DNA from: Nitrospinia bacterium
Lineage (GTDB): Bacteria; Nitrospinota; Nitrospinia; Nitrospinales; JAJDAT01
Assembly (NCBI GenBank): GCA_029261715.1
Contig: JAJDAT010000020.1
Span: 1 to 64,000, forward strand
Length of the DNA stretch: 64,000 bases
Reading direction: 5' to 3'
The notes below the pieces were generated by a model, which worked only from the letters and a program-made list of their open reading frames with translations, was not told the origin of the DNA and ran no database searches. Below are positions 3,913 to 22,471 of this stretch, one piece after another. Each line of letters opens with the position of its first letter. The first letter of the stretch is position 1. Position numbers and translations under genes: made by a program.

Positions 3913-6900
3913 ATGAATCGATCTCCATTAGTTTATTTTTTGTTTTTTTTATCTGGCATTTCGGGTTTGGTTTACGAGATTGTATGGACCCGAATGTTAA
4001 CGCTTACTTTTGGCCATACCGTTTTTTCTGCTTCGATTGTTTTGTGCGCATTTATGGCAGGCCTTGGGTTGGGAAGTTATTTGTGGGGACATTGGGCCGA
4101 TACAGAGCGTGATCCCTTGTTAGTTTATGGAAAGATTGAGGTTTTAATTGCGGTTATTGGTTCGGTTCTGTCGGTTGTCTTGGCAAACTTTGGACCTATC
4201 TATTCTTGGCTACATGTTTTTATTCCCGAAATTTCATTACTGCAAAATGTTGTAAAAGCGGTTTTAGCTTTTGCTATGGTGATGTTCCCCGCTATGTTGA
4301 TGGGAGCTACTTTGCCTATTGTTGCAAAGTATTACGTGGCAGACGATCAAAAAATAGGAACTCAAATTGGTCTTTTGTATGCGATTAATACTTTTGGCGC
4401 GGCTTTAGGATGTATTTTGACGGGTTTTATTTTAATTCCAACTTTGGGAGTTTTACAGGCGGTTTTATTTGCGGCATGTATAAACCTTTTAGTGGGACTT
4501 GGGGCCGTCCGAGTCTACCAAGAAACTAATCCAGAAATAAAGATAGACTTTAAATTGCCTTTACCTTCGATTCCAAAGCTAGAAACGGATAAAGACGCTA
4601 ATATTTGGTTAGTTGTAAGTTTTATTTCTGGTTTTACAGCTTTAGCGTTTCAAGTTCTTTGGACTCGCCTATTGGTTTTTAGTATTTCTAGCACTGTTTA
4701 CTCCTTCAGCATGATGTTGGCTGTTTTTCTGTTAGGAATCGTATTAGGTAGTTTTCTTGTAATTCCCGTTTTAAGACTTTTTCCTTCAACAAGAACAATT
4801 TTATCTATTTTGCAGGCTGGAGTTGGAGTGTATGCGATTTCTTCTTTGTTTTTTATGGAAGATATTCTATCGGCTCCATGGAACAGCTATAACCTCCAGA
4901 ACCCTGTTGCGGCATTCACAACGTATTTTAAGGATAGCGCGGCTCTTATTTTTATCCCTACTCTTTTACTAGGTATGAACTTTCCAATTCTCACTAGAAA
5001 TTTCGCTAAAAATAAATCTAACGTGGGAAAGGGTACGGGGCAAATATACGCCGCCAATACTTTGGGAGCGATACTTGGGTCTTTCATTGCTGGTTTTATT
5101 TTATTGCCCATGCTGGGAACTCAAAAAAGCGTGGCTCTAGTGGCTTCGCTTAATTTGTTCTGCGCTGTTTTTCTTTTTGGTTCAGGAAACCTAGTTCAAT
5201 CTTCATTAAAAAAACCTTTGATAGCTATTGGGGCGGTTTTAATTATTGTTTTAAATTTTTCTATCCCAAAAGATCTTATCGATAGGTTTTTTATGCGAGA
5301 TAGCGCGGGAAAACGAGATATCACTAAACTAATTTATTTTGACGAAGGGCTTACCGATACGGTCGCTATATTCAAAGATAATTATGGGATATTAGATCCT
5401 GAAGCAAAACGTCTGATAACAAATGGAATTTCGATGTCGGCTTCAAATATGACGGCTACGAAATACATGAAAATGTTTGCTCATGTACCTATTATTTTGC
5501 GCGATAACCCAAAAGACGTATTGGTTATTTGTTTTGGCACGGGGCAAACAGTAGGAGCGGCTGGAATTCACCCAACTGTTGAAAGAGTGGATGCTGTAGA
5601 TTTATCTCCTGGAGTGATTAATTCAGGAAAAGTGTTTGCAAAAGAAAATCACGATGCGCTAAATAATCCGAAAATAAATATTGTTTTCCAAGATGGAAGG
5701 AACTACTTGTTAACAACTGGAAGGCAGTACGATGTTATTACAGCTGAGCCTCCGCCTCCACGTACAGCTTTTACGGTTAACCTATATACCAGAGAATACT
5801 ACGAGTTGACGAAGAAGCGTCTTAAACCGGGGGGCATTGTGGCGCAATGGATTCCTTTACATAGCCAGAGCGAAGAAGAGGTCTACCGACATTTTAAAAC
5901 TTTTCGAGATGTTTTTCCTCACGCTATGGGATGGATGTCTGTCGCTAAGGAAATTTTGATCATAGGATCGGATCAACCTATAGAAATTGATTTTGAAAAG
6001 ATAAAAAGTCGTCTTTCTGATCCAAAACTAAGCCCAGCATTTAAAGAACTAGAAATAAGCAATCCCTATGCGTTTCTTAGTTCAATATGGTTATTTGAAA
6101 AGCAAATTGATCGGTTGTCTTTGGGGCGTCCAATCATAAGCGATAATCAGCCTAGTATCGAATTTTATCTAGATTTCCCAGACGTTATTGGACCTGAACA
6201 ATTAGAAAAAATTATATTTAATAGGGCTGGTTTGGAAGAAATTACTGAAAAGGTCAAAAATTTTTCCGCCAGTGATCGTTCAAAGTTTGAGTCTTATTAT
6301 CGGTCAATGGATTTATATCAAAGAGGTGTAATTTATAGTAATCCTAACTTACTTCTAGATGCGGTCAACTTGGTTCCGGAAAATGAATTATTTAGATTCC
6401 ATCTTCAAGCTAGTAGAGGGCAAATTGAAAGGCTTTTAGATTTAATAAAAAATGAACCAGATAATTCTGAGCATTTGTTGAATTTAGGTCATGCCTATTT
6501 TCAGTTAGGCGATTATGAAAATAGTATGGAATTATTTAGAAAAGCTAAACGTTTGGATTCAAGTCAGCATCTTGCCGATTTGTATATGGCCCATAATTTT
6601 TTGAAAATTGGCAAACTAAAAAAGGCAAAGATGTTTTTTGATCAGGTTGCCAAAAAAGATCCTCGATTTATAAGAAAAATTATGCAGGAAGTTGGATTGA
6701 TTGAACTTTTAACGGAATTAGGAAATGATTCGGATAATCAGGGATTGATGATTTCTACAGCGCAATATTATAACCTTCGAAATGATTTTAGGAAGGCTTT
6801 GACTTATTCGCTAAAAGTTTTGGAGAAAAATCCAGACAACGCAAATGCCTTGCAGAGCGCAATTATTAGTTATCGTGGTTTGGGAGAACCAAGGGATGCT

Positions 6901-15861: not shown

Positions 15862-16404
15862 ATGATTGATGAAAATAACGTTTGGTTTAGCTTGTTTAAG
15901 GGAAACGTTCCTTCTCCCGTGAAAGTTTTTGAGAGATGTAATTGGGTTTTGGAGTCGGGAGTTGCTCTTACTGCTTGTATTATTGGTAAAAGCCATAGGA
16001 TTTGTTTTACATCAGGTTCTGATTGCTTAACTGAATTTATAGCCTATTCTATGGACAGTTTTTCAGTTGAACCGTTAGACCAGAGGTCTTTAAAGCTGGG
16101 AGATTCGCTTGATCGAGAGTTTATTCATCGATCGTTATATTATAAAGTTAAAGTAGAGGTTATTGGACAAGTTTACTTAAGTTTTGATGAATTCTTAAAA
16201 ACGATTCCGGATATTGAGTCGTATGAAACTATGTTTCGGGAATTTAAAAACCCATTATCAAACTCTGATAGCCAGCCTTTTACTGGAATCGTGATTGCCT
16301 CAAATAGGAATCAAATATTTACTGTTCATACCTATCCTGAAGTAAACTATTCGATCATTAGCGTTGTGGAGATTAATGTATTAGAGCCTGAATTTGCATC
16401 ATGA
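15862..16404 (+). CDS. Unknown protein heading the PspA/J-domain cluster
   Basis: 180 residues, no signal peptide or membrane helix. Visible features are an alternating beta-rich pattern (NVWFSLFKGNVPSPVKVFER, then ALTACIIGKSHRICFTSG) and a late segment GIVIASNRNQIFTVHTYPEV. I cannot assign a family. Its stop overlaps the start of the J-domain gene by ATGA at 16401-16404, so the two are translationally coupled and probably function together. The first ATG after an in-frame stop is used. Confidence 0.6.
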   Translation: MIDENNVWFSLFKGNVPSPVKVFERCNWVLESGVALTACIIGKSHRICFTSGSDCLTEFIAYSMDSFSVEPLDQRSLKLGDSLDREFIHRSLYYKVKVEVIGQVYLSFDEFLKTIPDIESYETMFREFKNPLSNSDSQPFTGIVIASNRNQIFTVHTYPEVNYSIISVVEINVLEPEFAS

Positions 16405-16763
16405 TAAAAAGACTTTTTCAAATTGCAAAATCCAATTTTGAATATTACTTAGATAAGAAAAACTCAGTTTTGGACGAACCTCCAATTATTGATCCGATTG
16501 GAAACTGGGATCAAGTCGATCCTGAAACGGAATATAAAAGCCCTGAGGATCCATTTGCTAAGTATTTTGCCAATTTAGAATTGCCAACAAACGCTAACAG
16601 GAAGGAAGTTAAGGCTTCATGGAAGCGATTAATGAAAAAGTATCATCCGGATTTACATTCAACTGACCCCGAAAAAAGAAAAGTTTCCACAGAACTATCA
16701 CAGGGGTTAACGGAAGCTTATAAAATTCTAGACAAAGAATTAACTAAAAGAGAAACTCTTTAA
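16401..16763 (+). CDS. Small J-domain protein
   Basis: 120 residues. The C-terminal half (50-115) is a J domain: helix II ANRKEVKASWKRLMKKYHPD contains the HPD tripeptide at 82-84 needed to stimulate DnaK ATPase. A further helix (LSQGLTEAYKILDKEL) completes the fold. The N-terminal 50 residues are acidic, proline-rich and probably disordered. No glycine/phenylalanine or zinc region is present, so this is a type III J-protein that would recruit DnaK to a specific client. Its coupling to the 180-residue protein and proximity to pspA suggest that client is part of the envelope-stress cluster (inference). Confidence 0.8.
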   Translation: MIKRLFQIAKSNFEYYLDKKNSVLDEPPIIDPIGNWDQVDPETEYKSPEDPFAKYFANLELPTNANRKEVKASWKRLMKKYHPDLHSTDPEKRKVSTELSQGLTEAYKILDKELTKRETL

Positions 16764-16876
16764 ATAATTAACTTAGTAGAATTTTTTTTAAAAAACATAT
16801 TTTATCTAAAACCTGAATTCCATTATATTGGAGACTTCTTAAATTTAATCGGACTCGACGCCGATAAGGAGGCAGA

Positions 16877-17269
16877 ATGTCGAATTTTGAAACAGTTAAG
16901 GGATACTTACTAGAGATGGGATTTTCGTTTGACGTTGAAAATTCCGAAGAAGAGTTAGTGGTGGTAAACGATCCTGATAGAGGTATAAAAGATTTAGTAA
17001 TAGACTGTGAAGATCCTATCGTTATATTAGAACAGGTCATTCTAGTTTTGGAAAAGGATTCTTCAGAAATTTATAAAAGAATTCTGCAAATGAATCGTTC
17101 TTTAGTTCATGGAGCTTTTTGTCTAAATGAGGAAGGTAATATTTTATTATTTCGCGATACCTTGCAGTTAACGAATCTTGATTTAAACGAACTAGAAGGC
17201 AGCATTGACGCGCTGAGTTTGGCAATGGCTGAAAATGGATCAGAACTTTTATCTTTTGTTGGAAAATAA
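16877..17269 (+). CDS. YjfI/DUF2170-like protein (YbjN-type fold)
   Basis: 130 residues, close to the 133-residue length of Escherichia coli YjfI. The hallmark late segment NRSLVHGAFCLNEEGNILLF, followed by RDTLQLTNLDLNELEGSIDA, fits the DUF2170/YbjN type III-chaperone-like fold. A strong ribosome-binding site, AAGGAGG at 16866-16872, precedes the ATG. In enterobacteria yjfI precedes yjfJ (a PspA homologue) and yjfK; here the next two genes are a PspA homologue and a DUF4178 protein. The matching order is the main support for the assignment. Molecular function unknown. Confidence 0.65.
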   Translation: MSNFETVKGYLLEMGFSFDVENSEEELVVVNDPDRGIKDLVIDCEDPIVILEQVILVLEKDSSEIYKRILQMNRSLVHGAFCLNEEGNILLFRDTLQLTNLDLNELEGSIDALSLAMAENGSELLSFVGK

Positions 17270-17363
17270 AGTATTTGAATAGAATTAGATCGCTTTATGA
17301 AAAAAAATAACAAGTAATATCATTAATATTAAAAAATCCTTTTTGTAAGAAAGGAACTTAGAA

Positions 17364-18077
17364 ATGGCTGGATTATTTTCTCGGATATTTCAATTAGGAA
17401 AAGCTGAAGCTCATTCTGTAGTCGACGCTATGGAAGATCCTATTAAAATGACTGAACAAGGTATTAGAGATTTGAAAAAGGATTTGCAAGAGTCAATGCA
17501 AAGTTTAGCCCAGGTTAAAGGGGTTACAATGCGCTTGCGCAATGATGCAGAAAATCAAAAGAAGATGTCTGTTTCAATGGAAAGAAAAGCAATGGCTTTG
17601 TTACAAAGCGCTCAGGAGGGAAAAGTAGAGCCGAGCGAAGCAGAACGATTAGCATCTGAAGCTTTGTCGCGAAAAGAAGATGCTAGCCAAAAGGCTTTAA
17701 GTCTTTCTAAAGATTTGCAGAGTCAAGAAGGTATGGCAAACCAACTTCAGAAAAATGTGGAAAAATTGCGATCTACGATTCAAAGATACGAAAACGATTT
17801 AATCACCCTTCGCGCCCGATCTAAAACAGCTAAAGCAACCCGTAAACTAAACGAACAAATTGCTAAGGTAGATTCTGGCGGTACAATTGCTATGCTTGAA
17901 AAAATGAAAGCAAAAGTAGAAGAAGATGAATCGCTTGCAAAAGCTTATGGAGAGATTGCCGATACGGGAGAAGACCTTGACGCCCAAATAGATAAGGCAT
18001 TACAAGGCGGTGGATCAGGTAGTCTTCCTCAATCAGATAGCCTTGCGGCTCTGAAAGCAAAAATGGGAATTTCCTGA
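17364..18077 (+). CDS. pspA: PspA/IM30/Vipp1-family membrane-stress protein
   Basis: 237 residues. It starts MAGLFSRIFQLGKAEAHSVV, the amphipathic membrane-binding helix of the family, followed by EDPIKMTEQGIRDLKKDL and a long coiled coil to about residue 200 with the family segment ENQKKMSVSMERKAMALLQ. PspA proteins are ESCRT-III-like polymers that coat and repair stressed inner membranes. A glycine/serine-rich linker (GGGSGSL) precedes a short C-terminal helix. GAAAGGA about 10 bp before the ATG is the ribosome-binding site. The gene ends one base before the DUF4178 gene, so the two are coupled. No PspF or PspBC homologue is nearby. Confidence 0.9.
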   Translation: MAGLFSRIFQLGKAEAHSVVDAMEDPIKMTEQGIRDLKKDLQESMQSLAQVKGVTMRLRNDAENQKKMSVSMERKAMALLQSAQEGKVEPSEAERLASEALSRKEDASQKALSLSKDLQSQEGMANQLQKNVEKLRSTIQRYENDLITLRARSKTAKATRKLNEQIAKVDSGGTIAMLEKMKAKVEEDESLAKAYGEIADTGEDLDAQIDKALQGGGSGSLPQSDSLAALKAKMGIS

Positions 18078-18078
18078 T

Positions 18079-18630
18079 ATGGCTTGGAACTTTTTTAAGA
18101 AAGATAAAGACAAAGAAGAGCCAGAACTGGATATTAATGATTTAGTTCTTTCCAAAATGAAGCCTGGGTTTCTTGTTGATTATGATATGAAAACATACCA
18201 GGTTATCGGAAAAAACCACTATCAGTGGGAAGAAGGGAATAAAACCCTTGAGTGGGAGTTAAAACAAGGTAGTGAAGTATTATATTTAGAACGAGAAGAG
18301 GAAGACGGGGAAGTTTCCTGGTCTCTTTCTAATAAACTAGCTATTGGAGCGCTCGAAGGAAATATTGCCGATTATATAATTGAAAATGAAGACCCACCAG
18401 AAAAAGTTGTGATGGACGGGGTTTCTTTTTATTTTGAGGAAGATGATATTGGAACCTATCATAAAGGAGATAGTCCTAGAGGACTCCAATTTGTGGTTTG
18501 GGACTATTCCGATGATCGTCAAGAAAAGTCTTTGTCAATTGAGCAATGGGGAGAAACCAAGTTTGACGTTACCGTTGGATTTGAGGTGGAAGAATATCAA
18601 TTTTCCAATATTTTGCCTGGAGCTAATTAA
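18079..18630 (+). CDS. DUF4178 (YjfK-like) protein
   Basis: 183 residues, soluble, acidic. The start of the domain, LVLSKMKPGFLVDYDMKTYQ, followed by WEEGNKTLEWELKQGSEVLYL and a second beta-rich half (GLQFVVWDYSDD...EQWG), matches the DUF4178 pattern, a beta-barrel-like domain found beside PspA genes. Its biochemical role is not known; comparative genomics links it to PspA membrane remodelling. It begins one base after pspA stops. A weak hairpin follows, marking the end of the operon. Confidence 0.75.
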   Translation: MAWNFFKKDKDKEEPELDINDLVLSKMKPGFLVDYDMKTYQVIGKNHYQWEEGNKTLEWELKQGSEVLYLEREEEDGEVSWSLSNKLAIGALEGNIADYIIENEDPPEKVVMDGVSFYFEEDDIGTYHKGDSPRGLQFVVWDYSDDRQEKSLSIEQWGETKFDVTVGFEVEEYQFSNILPGAN

Positions 18631-18704: not shown

Positions 18705-20750
18705 CTAGTTTTGTTTCTCTCGGCTTTTTTCTAGGTTTTTCATTGCATTTATTGTATTTGGATGGTCGAAACCTAAGATATTTTGAAATGAATTTAAAGC
18801 CTTTTGTAGATATGTTTCGGCAAGAGGGTAGTTTTTCATTTTTAAGTAAAGAATCCCAAAATTGTTTATTGAGGAAGCAATTATTGGGTCTTGTTTTTCG
18901 AAGGTTTTCTCTCTAATTTTTAGAGCTTCGCTTAAAACAAATTCTGCTTCCTTAAAACGGTTTTGTTTGAGGTAAAGATCGGCTAAATTAGTTTTTGCTA
19001 CGGCAATTTCTGGATGTTCTTTTCCTAGGATATTCTCATGAATTTCTAGAGCGTCTGTAAAAAGAGATTCTGCATCTTCAAACCGTTCTTGAGTTTTATA
19101 TAAAAGCGCTAAATTGTTTAGTGAGTGCACTACATCCAGATGCTCATCTCCTAAAAACTTTTCGAATATTTCCAAAGCTTCTTTGTATACTTCTTCTGCT
19201 TTTTGGTATTGCCCAATTTCTCTATAAAAATTGCCTAGATTGTCTAAAGAAATTGCCACATCTGGATGGTCGCCAAAATATATTTTCTTCCATAGCTGGA
19301 TCGTTTCCTGATAAGTTTTTTCGGCTTTTTCATGTTGTTTTCTGACCTTATGATTCCAAGCAAGGTTGCTTAGAGTTGTTGCAACAAGGGAATGTTCTTC
19401 CCCATAACAATTACGCCGTATGGAATACGCTTTTTGAAAAAAAATTTCCGCTTCAGCATAGTCGCCTTGATGATTTAAGTAATAACCTACATCGTTACAT
19501 AAACGCGCTGTTTGAGGTATTTGTAGGCCGAATTTATTTATCCAATTTAGCATGGCCCGAGCGCAGGGAATTAATTCTTCGCAAATCGGCCATGAGGTAA
19601 AATCTGGATCTGGAAACGCGGTTTCAAGAGTTTTTAAGGCTTTTTCAGCCCATAGCCTTGGAGATTCTAACAGGTCTCTAATAGCTTGTTGAACTATGTT
19701 ACTCATCCTAAGGCTTTGTTGGTCTAAACTTTGGTTGAGGATTGAGTATCGGCAAGCAATATCGATTATTTTATCCCAATGTAGATTCCAGTCGGTTTTT
19801 TCTTCTAGATCGTTTTCTAATAAATCTATTTCTTCTTCAAGAAAAACTTCATGGGGAATTAAACGAGAATCAAGGAAAGAGCATAACCGGATCAATTCAA
19901 CGGCCATGGGGCATTTTTTTTGAATCTGTTCTAAAGATAAATTTATAGCTAGAGCTAGGAACTTTGGATAGTCTTGCCTTGTTGTATTCTGCGAAGAGAT
20001 TTCTTTATCTGCAGGCTTAAATAGTAGTAAATATTCTATAAGAGTGATTTTGGTTTCGCGAATATAAGAACCTACTATTTCAATGGCTGGATGAACTCCG
20101 TTTAGCAAATCGTAAATTTGACTCGCTGTATCGACAACCTCTTTTGAAGCTATACTGATACCATCTTTATCGCCAATAATGTTCGATTGCTTTAGAAGGT
20201 GTATAACTCCTTCATCTTTAATATTTCGAACTGAACTGGTAGAAAAAGGATTTTTATTTTTGGGCTTTTGGGAGGATTTTTGATTTATTAAACTTTTTGG
20301 CAGTGTTTGTTCGGTAAGAAAAGAGTAAAGGTTTTCGTAATCTGACTCTAAAAAGAATTGTTTGGATTTTTTGAAAACTGGAGGAATAAAGTTAGTGTCG
20401 GTTTCAGAAGTTAGTACGGGTATAAATTGCTTATTTTTTATCTGACCATGGACGATTTCTAGATCAAGTATCGCTCCCTTCCAATCTTGATTTAAATCTT
20501 CATCAGGTTTTGTGCTAGCAGAAAATTGTTTTAAATAGAATTCTGTAAAAATAATAAGAATAAAATGAGATTCTTTTATTTTTTTTTGCATCCATTGTGA
20601 CCAACCAATTTTGGGAACGTCACTTTCAAATTGATCGATCCAACAATCAATTCCATCGTAGCGCAGTTGATCCGATAAAGCCAAAACGCGGTTCTTATGG
20701 TCTTTTGAATCATGGCTATAGCTAATGAAGACTTTAACCGAGTTTGGCAT
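18705..20750 (-). CDS. SEFIR-TPR protein with remnant STAND core (possible defence protein)
   Basis: 681 residues. Residues 4-145 are a SEFIR domain (a TIR relative): KVFISYSHDSKDH, then DGIDCWIDQFE and GWSQWMQKKI. Residues 146-175 are a lysine/serine linker. Residues 180-345 resemble the C-terminal part of a STAND NTPase: LLNGVHPAIEIVGSYIRETK aligns with the GLPLAL...AGAYI region, followed by a winged-helix stretch (CPMAVELIRLCSFLDSRLIP). No P-loop, Walker B or other nucleotide motif is present, so the NTPase half is missing. Residues 400-675 hold kinesin-light-chain-type TPRs about 42 residues long, with repeated GxxHPDVAxxLNNL patterns. SEFIR/TIR-STAND-TPR proteins are known immune sensors; this one would have to work without ATP. 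Single gene; codon use looks like its neighbours. Confidence 0.75.
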   Translation of the reverse strand: MPNSVKVFISYSHDSKDHKNRVLALSDQLRYDGIDCWIDQFESDVPKIGWSQWMQKKIKESHFILIIFTEFYLKQFSASTKPDEDLNQDWKGAILDLEIVHGQIKNKQFIPVLTSETDTNFIPPVFKKSKQFFLESDYENLYSFLTEQTLPKSLINQKSSQKPKNKNPFSTSSVRNIKDEGVIHLLKQSNIIGDKDGISIASKEVVDTASQIYDLLNGVHPAIEIVGSYIRETKITLIEYLLLFKPADKEISSQNTTRQDYPKFLALAINLSLEQIQKKCPMAVELIRLCSFLDSRLIPHEVFLEEEIDLLENDLEEKTDWNLHWDKIIDIACRYSILNQSLDQQSLRMSNIVQQAIRDLLESPRLWAEKALKTLETAFPDPDFTSWPICEELIPCARAMLNWINKFGLQIPQTARLCNDVGYYLNHQGDYAEAEIFFQKAYSIRRNCYGEEHSLVATTLSNLAWNHKVRKQHEKAEKTYQETIQLWKKIYFGDHPDVAISLDNLGNFYREIGQYQKAEEVYKEALEIFEKFLGDEHLDVVHSLNNLALLYKTQERFEDAESLFTDALEIHENILGKEHPEIAVAKTNLADLYLKQNRFKEAEFVLSEALKIREKTFEKQDPIIASSINNFGILYLKMKNYPLAETYLQKALNSFQNILGFDHPNTINAMKNLEKSREKQN

Positions 20751-21619: not shown

Positions 21620-22471
21620 TTATGCAGATTTTTTTGTTGTTTCGGTGTCAGGGTTGGCCATTTTTGCATAGAAATTGGTGCTTTCACGTCGAGAATGTCC
21701 CATGAGGTTTTGTACCGTTGGAACTTTTGCCCCATGTTGTAGAAGAAAAGCTGCAAATGAATGCCGCAACGAATGAGGGGTGGCGTTTTTTTCTACACCT
21801 GATACTTCTAAGGCTGCTTTAAAATATTTTGCGAAAGCTCGGGTAGTTAGTTTGCCGCCTCGTTCGCTTGGAAATAAATAGTCTCCAGGTTCTTTTTTAC
21901 CAATTTGGCGGAGAATCGCATCAGATAAACTTCTTGAAAAAATTGTAGTCCTTCCTTTCCTTCGTTCTCCTTGCCCCTTTACGAATAGATTGTTCGTCCT
22001 TAAGTTTATGTCTTTTACTAGGACTTCTACAAGTTCAGAAACTCGAAGCCCAGCGCTATAAGCTAATTCAATCATTAGTCTGTGTTTCAGATTTTCGGCA
22101 GATAAGGCTACTCTTCGAACTTCTTCAAGAGTTAATAGAACCGGAGTTCTTTCTTTCTTTTGAGGTCGTTCTAATTCGCTTATTGGAAATTTTTGTCCAA
22201 ATACTTCTACCCATAGAAAACGCAAAGCATTAATGGCTTGATCAATAGTGGACCTTGACTTTTTTGTAGAGTTTAGATGTCTTAGGTAATCTTCCAAGTC
22301 GCGATTAGAGGCTTCATGAGGATCCCGTGGCAAAATAAAAAAGAAAAAATTACGAAGTTGTCCTAAATAAGCTTTAACCGTTTGATCTCGGTATTTCCGA
22401 GTATTTAATCTTTCTTCGATAACCTCGTATGGTTTGGAGGCAAATTGGGGAAAAGGAAGCGATGCGTCCAT
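21620..22471 (-). CDS. Tyrosine recombinase (XerC/XerD-like)
   Basis: 283 residues. The N-terminal core-binding domain spans 14-95 and the catalytic domain 108-275. The catalytic residues are R143 (AGLRVSEL), K165 (beta-hairpin VKGQGERRKGR), H233 and R236 (HSLRH), H259 (LMGHS) and Y268 (NFYAKM); the set is complete. Length and motifs fit chromosomal XerC/XerD dimer-resolution recombinases. No att repeats, integron cassettes or phage genes flank it, so a housekeeping role is more likely than integrase. AGGAGAG precedes the ATG at 22471. Confidence 0.85.
   Translation of the reverse strand: MDASLPFPQFASKPYEVIEERLNTRKYRDQTVKAYLGQLRNFFFFILPRDPHEASNRDLEDYLRHLNSTKKSRSTIDQAINALRFLWVEVFGQKFPISELERPQKKERTPVLLTLEEVRRVALSAENLKHRLMIELAYSAGLRVSELVEVLVKDINLRTNNLFVKGQGERRKGRTTIFSRSLSDAILRQIGKKEPGDYLFPSERGGKLTTRAFAKYFKAALEVSGVEKNATPHSLRHSFAAFLLQHGAKVPTVQNLMGHSRRESTNFYAKMANPDTETTKKSA

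Follow-up and report, generated by a model that had tools for sequence, protein, structure and literature searches.

A SEFIR-TPR protein lacking its NTPase domain in a Nitrospinia bacterium: probably a silent regulator or decoy from a presumed phage-defence receptor family, or a dying gene

In SEFIR-STAND-TPR proteins, the tetratricopeptide repeats (TPRs) are expected to bind a ligand, upon which nucleotide exchange, oligomerisation and activation of the effector follow. What becomes of such a protein when its nucleotide-binding domain is missing? In this study, we analyzed a gene of this kind at positions 18705-20750 on the minus strand of a 64,000-nucleotide stretch of Nitrospinia DNA (the window), where a single open frame runs from ATG to TAG and encodes 681 amino acids. 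A preliminary description had read it as a SEFIR-TPR protein with the STAND NTPase core deleted, and had proposed either a decayed sensor or a new subfamily that works without ATP. Our analyses suggested that the gene derives from a presumed phage-defence receptor and that it probably either silently regulates, or acts as a decoy for, the five intact paralogues encoded by its genome, or else is dying.

The whole gene (18705..20750, minus strand, as are all features below) codes for a SEFIR domain, a linker, an HD1/winged-helix segment, a helical bridge and six TPRs, and the P-loop domain is absent. The SEFIR domain (residues 4-148; 20307..20741) has kept its fold, as indicated by a Pfam PF08357 match over residues 6-145 (E 1.2e-17; 65.0 bits against a curated cut-off of 23) and by a match to BcSEFIR (5y8e/5y8f). 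It is followed by a disordered linker (residues 149-172; 20235..20306), delimited by alignment to the paralogues and predicted by AlphaFold with pLDDT < 50 at residues 151-173. Profile match, AlphaFold and Foldseek together identified an HD1 or ARC1-type helical domain (residues 173-275; 19926..20234), and the adjoining DUF7779-like winged-helix domain with its helical bridge (residues 276-425; 19476..19925) was recognized from an Apaf-1/NRC2 fold and from a weak Pfam match to DUF7779 at residues 276-363, under the gathering score. The remainder is occupied by six 42-residue TPRs (residues 430-680; 18711..19463) detected by Pfam, fold match and AlphaFold; matches of the TPR_10/TPR_12 type are strong from about residue 430 (PF13424, E 9e-69), which confirmed the earlier assignment to the kinesin-light-chain (KLC) type. 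Over most of their length, the HD1/winged helix and the TPRs were predicted with pLDDT of ~90-98.

The P-loop, Walker B and sensor within an alpha/beta domain that characterize STAND/NB-ARC proteins were all lacking, in agreement with the earlier reading. No NB-ARC family was present among the 25 listed of 30 Pfam matches at E<=10, and a P-loop domain model built from the paralogues gave zero matches across the whole window at E<=1, ruling out an NTPase domain that lies concealed or in pieces at another site. Alignment with the five paralogues, all of which carry GLGG(I/V)GKT, LL(I/V)LDN and TTR, placed a gap of ~140 residues at the junction between residues 172 and 173 (20234..20235), and the missing block corresponds to the P-loop, Walker B and TTR sensor of the paralogues, so the proposed deletion of the NTPase core was borne out. 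In addition, remnants of conserved motifs were found in this alignment on both sides of the junction, including PKNKNPFST in the linker, which corresponds to PxxRNxFFT, the motif that precedes the NBD in the paralogues. Since such remnants flank the gap and all five same-genome paralogues possess a P-loop, the protein arose from a full-length ancestor by a clean, domain-bounded, in-frame loss.

The host genome is a 5.33-Mb draft in 52 contigs, with the window on contig C20 (129 kb), and the five full-length SEFIR-NB-ARC-winged helix-TPR paralogues are located on contigs C48 (two in tandem), C2, C5 and C39. Identity between the window protein and these paralogues is 37-44% for the SEFIR domain and 34-41% for the C-terminal halves. 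The same domain order is displayed by the paralogues and by SEFIR-NB-ARC-winged helix-KLC-TPR proteins of Nitrospira, Methanosarcina, Methanoperedens and Bryobacterales, whereas the window protein is without the P-loop domain, the GLPL and MHD motifs and the SEFIR Glu. Its TPRs are also diverged (mean identity among repeats 33%), in contrast to the near-identical repeats of these full-length relatives (51-67%). Several further observations were made on the paralogues. Third-position GC is 0.36-0.40 in the five paralogues versus 0.28 in the window copy and 0.25-0.34 in window genes, which suggests a later acquisition or a different age of the paralogues. One tandem member, C48a (locus L009, 1080-3065, 661 aa), has a TPR array that ends early, and may be truncated since its match to the window protein runs beyond an in-frame TGA. 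Another, C5b (L011, 1887-5099), has nine or more TPR units of 42 residues, several of them nearly identical, which suggests that duplication of repeats renews its sensor array. Contig C5 also encodes a SEFIR domain joined to an unrelated P-loop STAND core with GKGGIGKS (L013, 2141-4132), and two similar TPR-like genes follow it (4147-5019 and 5075-5932).

Whether the deletion defines a subfamily was addressed by looking for a second case. Relatives are encoded by 169 stretches of the GTDB contig collection, and the 79 loci analyzed from among them, together with loci from genome searches, yielded 33 distinct complete HD1/winged-helix homologues, the five paralogues included. The P-loop domain was present in all 33, and no individual match that covers the deleted architecture was observed elsewhere. 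Furthermore, no second NBD-deleted copy was found in the GTDB contig collection, in IMG/VR or by profile searches of ~1,680 genomes, comprising 77 from the window's phylum, 31 behind the loci and ~390 from each of four other phyla; in some of these searches a maximum of 4 candidates per genome were scored, so that copies in multi-copy genomes may escape. Any match at all was confined to 4 of the 77 genomes of the phylum; among these, the expansion of the family is limited to the host genome, and an orthologue of the window gene was not detected in the collections, whose nearest genomes share only the order. Because all 33 of these homologues keep the NTPase core and no second case was recovered, the gene, as judged by sequence comparison, is a single degenerate copy and not a member of a subfamily, and the earlier proposal of a new subfamily was not upheld.

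The loss of the NTPase domain is accompanied by erosion at other sites. The preliminary description had considered the SEFIR domain intact, which holds for its fold but not for its putative active-site loop (residues 85-91; 20478..20498), where G85D, G87N and E91K were identified. At position 91, Glu is shared by every other SEFIR domain compared (110/110), and the window protein has Lys (codon AAG at 20480-20478); at position 87, Gly (108/110) has given way to Asn, and Gly85 of the same loop is replaced by Asp; thus, the Glu that opens helix alphaC in bacterial-type SEFIR domains and the GxG loop ahead of it are both gone. Helix alphaC is the most altered part of the domain, and AlphaFold confidence falls over residues 81-110 (means 56-72). 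Besides Asp39, Glu91 is the sole residue both invariant and chemically fit for catalysis. It is retained in the solved bacterial SEFIR (5y8e/5y8f), and in human Act1 SEFIR (9ot1) the residue aligned with it is Ile. As the position opens the helix after strand C and is invariant, we infer that Glu91 may correspond to the glutamate of TIR NADases, an equivalence that relies on position and invariance rather than superposition, the local alignments to TIR structures ending before Glu91. Its conservation makes this Glu a concrete catalytic candidate in bacterial SEFIR domains.

The segment between the junction and the TPRs had been assigned to the C-terminal half of the STAND core, and structure prediction supported this: residues 174-430 were predicted as HD1-winged helix (mean pLDDT 86.5), with Apaf-1, NRC2, CED-4 and ZAR1 as the best Foldseek matches (best E 1.5e-3, probability 1.00), and the HD1 and winged helix that follow an NTPase core were recovered by a profile that includes the window sequence (HMM E 7e-113). 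What had been overlooked is that the GLPL-type and MHD-type motifs of this half are lost as well. Both motifs contact the nucleotide in AP-ATPases such as Apaf-1 and plant NLRs. The GLPL-type motif (residues 217-228; 20067..20102) is eroded (NGVHPAIEIVGS versus GGLPVALEQAGA), the LPLALEQAGA that is near-universal among the homologues (n=33) reading VHPAIEIVGS, with changes at all three of the conserved residues Leu219 (32/33), Ala226 (33/33) and Ala228 (32/33). The MHD-type motif (residues 349-354; 19689..19706) reads MSNIVQ versus I/M-HRLVQ, Ser replacing a His350 found in 33/33 homologues, so that neither motif retains its STAND/NB-ARC form. In total, 8 of 28 positions conserved at >=95% were lost, all of them among the 10 in three functional motifs and none among the 18 structural ones; the hypergeometric probability of 8/8 losses falling in catalytic or nucleotide motifs is 1.4e-5, a value that is indicative, as the motifs were named after the alignment had been seen.

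These losses may belong to a protein retained in a non-catalytic role or may be stages in the death of the gene. According to the latter explanation, the window gene is a redundant member of an expanded defence family, its frame still open by chance, and the deletion and motif losses mark its decay; we regard this as the main rival reading, possible but less likely than not. The gene is a single copy without a deleted relative in the ~1,680 genomes, it has suffered three separate functional losses, it has no linked partner gene, and another family member, C48a, also appears to end early. The phylogeny is in line with decay, too: the window copy nests in the clade of its own genome, where its branch measures 1.02 changes per site versus 0.52 for the nearest paralogue (60% support), and this roughly twofold acceleration, which lies mostly in the HD1/winged helix (1.11 vs 0.42) and less in the SEFIR domain (0.93 vs 0.75), fits relaxed selection as well. 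However, when neutral mutation of a 681-codon gene was simulated, the probability that the frame remains open had fallen, by 0.05 amino-acid changes per site, to 0.08 in the absence of indels and to 0.012 with indels at 5%, and it was about 0 by 0.2 changes per site, well short of the divergence on the window branch. A decaying frame would thus shut beyond ~5% amino-acid divergence, which is too little for losses at 8 of 10 motif positions with 0 of 18 at structural ones; moreover, the folded domains are intact, and codon usage (0.110) resembles that of window genes (0.146 +/- 0.025) more closely than paralogue codon usage does (0.008-0.090). Such a pattern cannot arise in a neutral phase so brief that the frame survives; selection was therefore probably still acting on the protein when catalysis was lost. 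The earlier argument that the open frame speaks against simple decay was therefore supported by simulation, normal codon usage and motif-confined losses, although it falls short of proof.

With the nucleotide domain and the SEFIR Glu gone, ligand binding and passive association alone remain to the protein, which would be unable to hydrolyse ATP for assembly or to act as a SEFIR enzyme and may be retained for non-catalytic binding. We favor, at a confidence that is evenly balanced, a reading absent from the preliminary description, in which this regressed paralogue, dead in catalysis but still able to bind ligand, was kept as a decoy for the other family members or a modulator of them. Its TPRs most likely still bind the kind of ligand sensed by the paralogues, and by titrating that ligand the protein could act as a decoy or threshold-setter, that is, a dominant-negative modulator. 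Alternatively, it might titrate an inhibitor that phages direct against the active copies, or enter paralogue assemblies as a dead subunit. Animal SEFIR domains interact through helix alphaC (PMC4014126), and since this helix is altered in the window protein, the co-assembly version is weaker and the ligand decoy is favored. A narrower proposal, drawn by analogy with NRCX and NRG1C, is that the protein represents a bacterial "modulator NLR", a doubly dead family member kept to restrain or shield its active paralogues, which we put forward only tentatively and consider rather unlikely.

The remaining explanations retain a direct function for the protein or deny that the deletion is real. The preliminary description had suggested that the SEFIR effector is governed by the TPRs and winged helix with no need of ATP, such that ligand binding by the TPRs frees the SEFIR domain through the winged helix in an NTP-free sensor-effector. 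The SEFIR, winged helix and TPRs are indeed all present and foldable, and other P-loop-less SEFIR proteins exist, many of them of 250-460 aa, but the otherwise invariant Glu91 is Lys, the flanking glycine loop is gone and the architecture is unique, without relatives; with the invariant Glu lost, we judge such an effector improbable. Equally improbable in our estimation is a non-enzymatic adaptor, whose Glu-less SEFIR domain would link TPR-bound cargo to another protein instead of restraining paralogues. Human Act1 offers a precedent, since its SEFIR domain (with the Ile noted above) signals by SEFIR-SEFIR contacts (PMC4014126), and in IL-17 receptors the domain likewise serves as an interaction module; yet no partner was identified, and the helix that mediates such contacts is precisely the part most altered in the window protein. 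An assembly chimera was excluded by the only ~40% identity to the paralogues and by the independent motif losses. Similarly, a full-length gene whose core was dropped during assembly or binning is conceivable in a draft genome, but the Glu91, GLPL and MHD losses are independent and far from the junction and the gene is deep within its contig, which makes this artefact extremely improbable.

The genomic neighborhood consists of genes for a GDSL hydrolase, a DnaJ-domain protein, a CesT/YbjN-like protein, PspA, a DUF4178 protein, a carboxymuconolactone decarboxylase-family protein, a tyrosine recombinase and an ABC exporter, and a defence-island setting was rejected on the basis of these neighbors. 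No linkage of the gene to the paralogues or to a recognized defence gene was found. On one side, same-strand genes for the DnaJ-domain, CesT_Tir_1/YbjN-like, PspA/IM30 and DUF4178 proteins (16401-18630) form a membrane-stress-like cassette facing the SEFIR gene; a tyrosine recombinase (Phage_integrase with a SAM-like N-terminus; 21620-22471) lies one gene away from it. If the decoy or modulator reading is correct and the copy is maintained, bacteria, like plants, would evolve dead receptor paralogues that tune an NLR-like network, and the gene would offer a natural test of which SEFIR-STAND-TPR parts are sufficient for ligand binding. If it is merely decaying, it would be an ordinary by-product of defence-gene turnover.

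Several known systems resemble the window protein in part. The bSEFIR anti-phage family has the SEFIR domain in common with it, and the PADLOC model (PDLC03957) matches residues 5-305 (E 4.5e-29), only part of the model being covered; in contrast to that family, the window protein lacks the conserved SEFIR Glu and carries KLC-type TPRs, and phage protection by it is putative. Inactive STAND and effector domains are also observed in conflict systems (PMC7159879), where the NTPase fold is kept but inactive within a linked ternary system, whereas the window gene has no linked partners and its NTPase domain is missing altogether. The animal adaptor Act1 (TRAF3IP2) likewise has a SEFIR domain without the bacterial-type Glu and uses it in protein contacts, but it has neither TPRs nor a winged helix, and common descent of the Glu loss is not implied. 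Further parallels are the plant modulator NLRs NRCX and NRG1C, for which modulator function was demonstrated (PMC9851556). Like the window protein, they belong to an expanded NLR family and have regressed, their executor activity being lost; however, NRCX keeps its P-loop and MHD motif and NRG1C lacks the executor domain instead, and the modulation that was demonstrated for them would, in the window protein, be a role that we infer.
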